From NCBI GenBank assembly GCA_003054695.1, contig QAZA01000045.1, forward strand, positions 124,001 to 188,000: a stretch of 64,000 nt of DNA, given 5' to 3'. Each line of letters begins with the position of its first letter. The first letter of the stretch is position 1. The notes below the pieces were generated by a model, which saw only the letters and a list, made by a program, of their open reading frames with translations, had not been told where the DNA came from and did not search any database. The stretch comes from Verrucomicrobia bacterium LW23 (GTDB taxonomy: Bacteria; Verrucomicrobiota; Verrucomicrobiia; Methylacidiphilales; UBA1321). Positions 35,354 to 58,803 of this stretch are shown in pieces. A program made the position numbers and the translations under genes.

Positions 35354-35856
35354 GGAGCGGATAGCCGCTTCGCGCGGCATTGACGGGCCGGCGCGGAGAG
35401 GAAAGTCCGAACACCACAAGGCAGCGTGCCGCAAAAAGCTTGCGGAGCGGTGCGGGGTAACCTGCGCCGGATGGAAAGTGTCACAGAAAACAAACCGCCG
35501 CCGTCGGAGCGCCCCCGCAAGGGAGCGGGCCGTGGCGGTAAGGGTGAAAAGGCGGGGTAAAAGCCCACCGCCCGTGGAGGTAACTCCCGGGGCACGATAA
35601 ACCCCACGCGGTGCAAGACCAAACAGGGGCCCACGGCCGCCTGCCAGCACGCGCGCCTACCGCCCCGGCGGAGAGCACGCGTCGGCCCCGGGTATCGGTC
35701 GCACCAGCTCGCTCTCGCCTTCGGGCAGGGCGCGCGGCGTCTCCCCCCATCGGGGAGGCGAGATGAATGGCTATCCAGCGCCATGCGACTGGCCGCAGCC
35801 CCTCCAGGCGGCGGTCAGCCTCCTGCCGCGGACAAAATTCGGCTTACAGCTCCACC
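35354..35856 (+). ncRNA. rnpB: RNase P RNA (bacterial type A)
   Basis: About 500 nt. P1 pairs GGAGC (35354) with GCTCC (35849-35853). The first universal core is GAGAGGAAAGTCCGAACACC (35396-35415); CGCGGTGCAAGACCAAACAG (35608-35627) is the CR IV core; ACAAAATTCGGCTTACAG (35833-35850) is the CR V / P4 3' strand. It processes tRNA 5' ends with RnpA. Ends are set by pairing and are approximate. It is longer than the usual 350-450 nt, with the extra sequence after the CR IV core. A terminator follows. Confidence 0.93.
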
Positions 35857-35859
35857 AAC

Positions 35860-53856: not shown

Positions 53857-54110
53857 ACGATTTTCCGACAACCTCGAAGAGGTTGTATAACCTAGCCCAG
53901 GGTTCCCCGAACGTAGAGAGGGAACCCTGGGAAAGCAGTCATCTCAGCACAACCCCAACGCGGGTTGTATCCCTTTGCGCAAGAGCAGGATACGACCCAC
54001 GTTGGGGTCGTGTTTTCTCTCGCCTCTTCCCAGGGTTCCCTCGCTTTACTCGGGGTACTCGGGGAACCCTGGGCTAGGTTATACAACCTCTACGAGGTTG
54101 TCGGATCGTC
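53857..54110. repeat. Long nested palindrome (family F)
   Basis: About 250 bases. Outer arms 53857-53910 and 54060-54109 pair, with CCGACAACCTC, GAGGTTGTATAACC and CCCAGGGTTCCC within them. Inner hairpins are 53898-53930 (CCAGGGTTCCC / GGGAACCCTGG), 53948-54011 (ACAACCCCAACG / CGTTGGGGTCGT) and 54029-54073 (CCCAGGGTTCCC / GGGAACCCTGGG). It fills the spacer between the LysM gene and miaA; the miaA frame runs through it but its start is beyond. Confidence 0.9.
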
Positions 54111-57530: not shown

Positions 57531-57728
57531 GCCAGAGCAGGGGAGTGGGGGATTCGATGCGCTCCTTACGGGCGCGCTCGACATTTTTGCGGTGGTTTTT
57601 GGGGCGAAACCGGCCTTCGAAAAATATTGCGGTAAAATATTTCGTTGCGCTGCAACGACTTGCGATTGTTTAGGTGGTTTACTTCTAATTTAATTCGGCA
57701 AACAGCTGCGCCTACCCGTCTTAACTAC

Positions 57729-57959
57729 ATGAAATACATACTCGCTGCTCTTCTCGCTGTTGGCGCTTTTACTATGGTGCCTACCTCCCAGGCTAAAGCG
57801 GATCTTGTGATTGTTCTTGGCGATGGCCATCATCATCACCACAAACCGCACTGGAAGAAAAAGTACTATGGTTGCTATGGCTACGGTGGTTACTACGGCC
57901 ACCATCACCACCACCACAAGCCCTGGTGGAAGAAGAAGAAGCACCACCACCATCACTAA
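57729..57959 (+). CDS. Tiny secreted His/Lys-rich protein (paralogue 1)
   Basis: 76 residues from ATG 57729. Signal peptide MKYILAALLAVGAFTMVPTS, cut near QAKA. The mature ~50 residues have 17 His in three clusters, Lys triplets, Trp/Tyr/Gly in between (e.g. GYGGYYGHHHHHHKPWWKKK). A closely similar signal peptide and C-terminus (KPxWKKKKH) occur in the next gene. A palindrome (CGTTGCGCTGCAACG, 57643-57657) lies upstream. It may bind transition metals or act on membranes; role unknown. Confidence 0.8.
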   Translation: MKYILAALLAVGAFTMVPTSQAKADLVIVLGDGHHHHHKPHWKKKYYGCYGYGGYYGHHHHHHKPWWKKKKHHHHH

Positions 57960-58090
57960 AGAGCAAACCCCTGTTGGATGTATGTGCGAAGTTTCCGCCG
58001 GCAAGATATCTGATTGAACAGAACTAACCAACATATCTTAGACCGCACCGCAGATTCTCTCCTCAAACTCCACAAGGACAACATAACCCC

Positions 58091-58123
58091 AGCCGTCCGC
58101 CGCAAGGCGGGCGGCTGTTTTGT
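58091..58123 (+). terminator. Terminator of paralogue 1
   Basis: AGCCGTCCGCC / GGCGGGCGGCT stem with GCAA loop, then GTTTTGTT, 131 bases after the stop at 57959. Confidence 0.85.
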
Positions 58124-58252
58124 TGTCCACAAGCGTCGCCCGCTGAACTCTCCCCCTTCTGCTGCAATAACTTGCATCAGTCTGCGACACACACTGCGAC
58201 AATTCCGTACAATTCTTCCCGACAAGATTTGCAGGGAGCCCGTCTATACCAT

Positions 58253-58471
58253 ATGAAATACTTTCTTGCTGTTCTCCTCGCTGTTTGTGCTTTCTCTTTT
58301 GTTCCTGCTACTGAATCCAAAGCAGGCATCGTTATCACCATCGGTGGCGGCTATAATAACTGCGGCCCTCATTACAAGAAGCCGTACAAAAATTGCTGGA
58401 CGCCTTACTACAATCAGCCTTGTTATAAGAAGCCGTACTGGAAGAAGAAGAAGCACAACCATTGCTGGTAA
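58253..58471 (+). CDS. Tiny secreted Lys/Tyr/Cys-rich protein (paralogue 2)
   Basis: 72 residues from ATG 58253. Signal peptide MKYFLAVLLAVCAFSFVPAT, cut near ESKA. Mature part has Cys (in YNNCGPHYKKPYKNCW, NQPCYKK and HNHCW) where paralogue 1 has His clusters, but the ending KPYWKKKKHNHCW matches KPWWKKKKHHHHH in position. So the two genes are a diverged tandem pair; the first is His-rich, the second Cys/Tyr-rich. Function unknown. Confidence 0.8.
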   Translation: MKYFLAVLLAVCAFSFVPATESKAGIVITIGGGYNNCGPHYKKPYKNCWTPYYNQPCYKKPYWKKKKHNHCW

Positions 58472-58636
58472 TTTAAAACACGCCACGGCTACATCATGAG
58501 CCGCCGACTGGTCGGGCCTGAAGCAACGTCACTTAAGTTTACATGCCTTCACTACAAGCAGGGCCCAGGAACAAGGTCGGCAACATGCATAGCCAGTACG
58601 CATAACCCTACAACCCATCCTCTGATTATCTATACC

Positions 58637-58675
58637 GCGGCCGCTCGCCCTCCCCAGGGCGGGCGGCCGCTTTTG
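58637..58675 (+). terminator. Terminator of paralogue 2
   Basis: GCGGCCGC(T)CGCCC stem with TCCCCA loop and GGGCGGGCGGCCGC, then TTTTG. It lies 166 bases after the stop at 58471; the rest of the 58472-58803 spacer holds no gene. Confidence 0.85.
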
Positions 58676-58803
58676 TTATGCGTGCGATTGTCTGAGTGAC
58701 AGCCATGTCAAATGAAGTTTGTCTACTGGACACGCCCCGATTCTGCGCCATGGTTACAGGGTCGGCAAAGTCGAACCTAACAACCGACTCTCCTACTACC
58801 CCC

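Follow-up and report, generated by a model that had tools for sequence, protein, structure and literature searches.

In gastric Helicobacter, Hpn and Hpn-2 are small paralogous His-rich proteins that act intracellularly, and Hpn sequesters nickel (PMC4671568). Bufferins are small Sec-exported Cys peptides that chelate metal; they occur sometimes in tandem and sometimes with sigma genes, precursors without adjacent MNIO genes are found, and the exported part of Buf2 has, by definition, 6 or 12 conserved Cys (PMC12452194). As for regulation, the RpoE9 promoter of S. meliloti reads TGTCACA-N16-CGTC, with CGTC lying 9 nt upstream of the start site (PMC3616915). Tiny low-complexity secreted proteins usually remain orphan hypotheticals, since similarity searches fail on them.

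Here, we analysed two such genes, g1 and g2, lying within a stretch of 64,000 nucleotides from Verrucomicrobia bacterium LW23 (the window). Their likeness to Hpn and Hpn-2 is one of description; whereas the Helicobacter proteins are intracellular, g1 and g2 have signal peptides. In our best explanation, which as a whole we hold tentatively and somewhat short of an even chance, g1 and g2 form a tandem duplicate and belong to a lineage-specific set of eight exported proteins, all very small. An upstream signature links the set, and one member (L098) was found by it alone. Thus, function becomes testable on the set as a whole (one regulator, one stress), and the approach suggests a way to find similar genes in further genomes. 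The set is better organised than an earlier note, drawn from the sequence only, could see.

Two paralogous mini-protein genes

The earlier note had described tandem mini-protein genes with near-identical signal peptides and a common C-terminal pattern, KPxWKKKKH. All of this was borne out: both ORFs are present (table 1) and encode 76 and 72 aa, the signal peptides (MKYILAALLAVGAF in g1, MKYFLAVLLAVCAF in g2) are homologous, and the ends read KPWWKKKKH and KPYWKKKKH, respectively. The proteins are 49% identical, and their global alignment gives z scores of 17 (whole length), 12 (signal peptide), and 7.7 (mature part), with 0 of 2000 shuffles reaching the observed score; the KPxWKKKKH end is therefore not just common composition. 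On these alignments, g1 and g2 are true paralogues. The count of 17 His in g1 was likewise correct, all being mature (HHHHH, one single H, HHHHHH, and HHHHH) and accounting for 17 of 52 mature residues, next to a single mature Cys. The label Cys/Tyr/Asn given to g2 fits its 4 mature Cys, 7 Tyr, and 5 Asn, but omits Lys; because both mature parts are rich in Lys to the same degree, with 9 each, g2 is better named Lys/Tyr/Asn/Cys-rich. Its mature part also holds 3 His. Features of Sec export (charged start, hydrophobic core, and AxA-type cleavage site) are present, as judged from a simple rule-based scan and the sequence. A structure model built from two sequences returned the signal helix and no further fold (pLDDT 50), which is weakly compatible with disorder. 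High-expression codon usage found no support in either gene, both falling within the upper 27-29% of background stretches.

The two-gene locus (window 57535-58690) has 51% GC against 63% for the window, with g2 alone at 44%. Judged by eye, radC lies upstream of it and a gene of the carboxymuconolactone-decarboxylase-like type downstream; the closest matches of this RadC are in MAGs labelled Chthoniobacter or Verrucomicrobia (50-52%), which places the genome in the phylum Verrucomicrobiota. Elsewhere in the window, a bacterial class A RNase P RNA lies at 35354-35857 (+), and two facing copies of a dispersed repeat, CAACGCGGGTTGTAT, at 53956-53970 (+) and 53990-54004 (-). This repeat, possibly a REP- or MITE-like element, is found letter for letter 7 times within 884 kb of the contig that holds the window and 0 times in 240 kb of another contig.

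Each gene had also been credited with a strong terminator, and hairpins with a TTTTGTT tail are indeed found 3' of both. The stretch between stop codon and terminator is long, as claimed, but measures 130 (g1) and 165 (g2) nt instead of 131 and 166. In the 64-kb window, both strands considered, four hairpins pass a stricter scan, and TTTT directly follows the stem only in the g1 and g2 terminators. Under a single rule, the genome background of strong terminators is 47 per Mb on both strands, this and the other background rates being drawn from 1.24 Mb of the 6.6-Mb genome; the same rule finds one 3' of five of the eight members, 21 to 511 nt past the stop codon. A comparable hairpin follows L020, but its T tract is shorter.

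Table 1. Features of the two-gene locus (window positions) and loci of the remaining members (contig:position).
Feature	Position	Strand	Description
g1	57729..57959	+	His/Lys/Tyr-rich exported protein (76 aa, 17 His); mature part begins near residue 25 (DLVIVLGDGHHHHH...)
g2	58253..58471	+	Lys/Tyr/Asn/Cys-rich exported protein (72 aa, 4 mature Cys); mature part begins near residue 25 (GIVITIGGGYNNC...)
g1 CGGCAA	57696..57701	+	15 nt 5' of CGTC; proposed -35 element (CGNCAA, as in g2 and L003); three sequences only, weak
g1 CGTC	57717..57720	+	at -12 from ATG (CGTCTTAACTACATG); ECF-type promoter, proposed -10 element
g1 3' untranslated stretch	57960..58089	+	130 nt; no sign of structure or conservation
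g1 intrinsic terminator	58090..58124	+	12-bp hairpin (58090-58117, -27 kcal/mol) and TTTTGTT
g2 CGACAA	58220..58225	+	15 nt 5' of CGTC; proposed -35 element; weak
g2 CGTC	58241..58244	+	at -12 from ATG (CGTCTATACCATATG); proposed -10 element
g2 3' untranslated stretch	58472..58636	+	165 nt; no sign of structure or conservation
g2 intrinsic terminator	58637..58677	+	15-bp hairpin (58637-58670, -35.4 kcal/mol) and TTTTGTT
L003/L019	C45:695721		paralogue
L004/L021	C45:287148	minus	paralogue
L006/L020	C56:151317		paralogue
L022	C50:241204	minus	paralogue
L023	C25:161731		paralogue
L098	C21:48017		paralogue

The eight-member set and its upstream signature

The genome (6.6 Mb, 56 contigs) holds eight members, g1 and g2 included, at seven loci that are scattered and apparently single-gene. 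All eight have a Sec-type signal peptide and a cationic tail rich in His, Tyr, Gly, Arg, and Lys, the mature part usually starting like AGIVIxxGGG. Every member scores 1e-14 or better against a profile of all eight, a result that is circular for members; non-circular support comes from the first 33 residues of g2, which align with the starts of the six other paralogues at z 3.8-10.9 (lowest for L098). The mature tails of these six align with the g2 tail at z -0.4 to 2.1, not beyond composition, and a shared molecular function is therefore not assured. Across the eight mature parts, pI is 9.4-11.2, net charge +5 to +13, and His plus aromatic residues 25-50%, with mature His ranging from 0 (L021) to 27 (L098) per member and Cys from 0 to 4. 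Scanned by rule for small ORFs that combine export with a tail of this type, 1.24 Mb yielded no case convincing by eye other than the five members present.

The earlier note had named a lack of homologues in related genomes as a refutation, and this applies by half: none was found at E <= 0.01 in 59 other genomes of the order, a sample without any genome of the same genus, but the genome itself yielded six further paralogues. Plasmid, phage, and IMG/VR collections gave no homologues, and a GTDB-220 scan with a three-member alignment gave 393 pattern matches, 0 of them confirmed. A search of 384 genomes sampled across the class gave matches at E <= 1e-3 in nine, not counting the genome of the window itself (e.g. 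MNWKKLLVIGLAVGGFAFATASPSQAGVSVGIGIGVPGYGYYPYGYY). The matching proteins have a signal peptide and a Tyr-rich tail, and their mature part often starts in the AGVxVGIGxG manner; a Shine-Dalgarno precedes several, and CGTC at -12 is absent from all those checked. Kinship with these proteins is no more than possible, since the common stretch is short and the tails are of low complexity. Of the new secreted family that had been proposed, there stand eight small secreted members in the genome, with nothing above the curated Pfam or NCBIfam cut-off for g1, g2, or the paralogues; structured RNA in the long 3' segments, which had also been proposed, found no support. Overall, this is a real and lineage-specific family, ordinary in kind and apparently co-regulated.

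CGTC or CGTT stands exactly at -12 in g1, g2, L003, L023, and L098 and at -13 in L020 and L022. Thus, seven of the eight members carry the element, against 6 of 660 ordinary genes (0.9%; Fisher p 1.2e-12), these being genes of >=150 aa with an ATG start within 1.24 Mb of the same genome, whose start codons are approximate; the test is post hoc, the motif having been spotted in the family before testing, and the count calls for caution in that g1, g2, and L003 may owe CGTC to duplication. In L021 the motif lies 234 nt upstream and not at -12, with a TGAA-type site and a 226-nt leader. Two forms are seen on the -35 side, TGAA-N17/18 (L020, L023, and L098) and CGNCAA-N15 (g1, g2, and L003); L022 is a strict fit to neither. 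TGAA-N17/18-CGTCWTWA occurs at 7 sites genome-wide (control 4). Four of these stand before members, including L021, and one more before a different exported protein of low complexity. A broad catalogue, compiled over 1.24 Mb, of ORFs with CGTY...A close to an ATG was mostly noise and was set aside.

Two loci outside the set may be mentioned. At L146 (C25:11905, +), an exported low-complexity protein of 249 aa, rich in Ser, Thr, and Gly, has a TGAA-N17-CGTCATAA site 111 nt before it. Locus L163 (C45:298277, +) encodes a 126-aa exported LTXXQ protein (PF07813, E 7e-8) with HHHHH, CGTCTACA at -14, and ribosomal-protein-like codon usage; it may likewise belong to the regulon.

Candidate regulation and function

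The upstream geometry of the seven members resembles, we infer, that of ECF-sigma promoters giving leaderless mRNA. It is like that of the RpoE9 promoter if +1 here is the ATG, and since RpoE9-like geometry would put +1 about there, an ECF-type, leaderless reading suggests itself; a common putative -10 at a fixed position, one mark of an ECF regulon, is found in the same seven of eight. Other marks of such a regulon are a single conserved -35 element at fixed spacing and a cognate sigma factor, which usually regulates itself. An alternative (ECF-type) sigma factor would then read the members' promoters, and transcription would start at or beside the ATG, giving leaderless mRNAs in response to one signal. 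The Sec pathway would export the peptides, which would stay disordered, whether periplasmic or on the cell surface; through charge and aromatic side chains they would bind the anionic polymers of the envelope and form a protective coat, to which His-rich g1 and Cys-containing g2 would add transition-metal binding. The upstream signal in common suggests one switch controlling a lineage-specific set of disordered envelope peptides. That these cationic peptides are co-regulated and disordered, and both coat the envelope and bind metal, is the account we lean to, while granting it a little under an even chance. A bolder form, in which one alternative sigma drives at least eight mostly leaderless, dispersed genes for a stress-deployed peptide coat of interchangeable His, Tyr/Arg, and Lys/Cys chemistry, seems doubtful.

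Alternatively, the proteins may be dedicated periplasmic metal buffers, with g1 (His clusters) and g2 (Cys/His) sequestering Ni, Cu, Zn, or Co, their chemistries covering different metals, and the other paralogues having diverged or using other ligands. The share of His in mature g1, the 4 Cys and 3 His of g2, the 12-27 His of L003, L023, and L098, and the precedent of paralogous small His-rich metal proteins in Hpn and Hpn-2 (PMC4671568) make metal handling by the His-rich members plausible. A further point in favour, read by eye, is a cnrYXH-like anti-sigma, sensor, and ECF-sigma set in the genome (L204, C56:60001-68007, minus), with genes for outer-membrane, membrane-fusion, and RND efflux components after it, together likely to be a heavy-metal resistance operon. 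However, only those three members besides g1 are strongly His-rich, and metal binding is therefore not the common denominator of the set: L020, L021, and L022 have the common N-terminal half yet only 4, 0, and 3 His, L020 and L022 with the upstream signature as well. Moreover, no metal genes were seen among the neighbours of g1 and g2, and low-complexity tails easily give rise to His runs. A pure metal buffer is thus a reading we doubt, and a cationic envelope set is preferred to it because the traits in common are export, positive charge, aromatic or His side chains, low complexity, and, in seven, the signature.

The signature itself could be read otherwise, the CGTC at -12 marking another, constitutive promoter class or a translation signal and not an ECF regulon, and being shared because the members descend from one ancestor. 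None of 19 sigma-70 region 4 matches in the genome has a convincing matching upstream site, and no cognate sigma gene was identified among them; the two forms of the -35 side, and the counts of CGTCWTAA-N2/6-ATG genome-wide, only slightly above control (15 vs 10), also speak for such a reading. Conversely, apart from this element the stretches upstream of the members are no more alike than shuffled sequence, L023-L098 being the one marginal exception, and inheritance alone would therefore not preserve just the CGTC element, which is moreover rare before ordinary genes, as given above; that L098 was picked out by the motif also speaks against simple inheritance. On balance we consider a non-ECF origin of the signature unlikely. 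The one candidate for the cognate sigma's own site, GGAAC-N17-CGTC before a cnrH-like gene, was discarded, because it falls within the preceding gene's coding sequence.

Envelope coating under an ECF-type sigma remains the reading we prefer. Small, exported, and cationic, the peptides might instead attack other microbes, and their His/Tyr-rich composition recalls histatins, a lead only; yet the genes are dispersed and single, no gene for immunity or dedicated transport is seen beside g1 and g2, and the signal is, by eye, Sec-type and not a double-glycine leader, all of which makes an antimicrobial or competition role improbable. That the long 3' segments are functional structured RNAs, with the peptides secondary, as the unusual distance from stop codon to terminator had suggested, is hardly credible and was rejected: folding z scores against shuffles are -1.1 (g1) and -0.4 (g2), the two segments resemble neither each other nor the paralogues' 3' segments beyond shuffles, the stop-to-terminator length varies from 21 to 511 nt among paralogues, and no Rfam family matched.

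Comparison with described families

Buf2 has 6 or 12 Cys, whereas g2 has 4 in its mature part and g1 has one; the Buf1 domain DUF2282 (PF10048) has no Pfam match in either, and no MNIO or DUF2063 gene was recognised by eye beside g2. The HHHH-motif mini-proteins (NF040554) are, like g1, small, with a signal peptide and a His run, but g1 and g2 give no match to NF040554 at E <= 1. Membership there means an NCBIfam score of at least 40 bits, and the genomes of the order were set aside in this respect, as they gave sub-threshold matches only and control genomes match as well. WXXGXW repeat proteins (PF12779), which g1 and g2 do not match at E <= 1, and similar small secreted Tyr/Gly-rich proteins of Verrucomicrobiota are like the members in size and signal peptide, and also in a mature start of the AGVxVGIGxG kind and an aromatic, basic low-complexity tail; one such protein of the same order (L048) scores above the PF12779 cut-off. 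Unlike the members, the genes of this kind checked in other genomes are without CGTC at -12. If the bolder form of the preferred reading is true, the set would constitute a peptide coat of a kind not described before.
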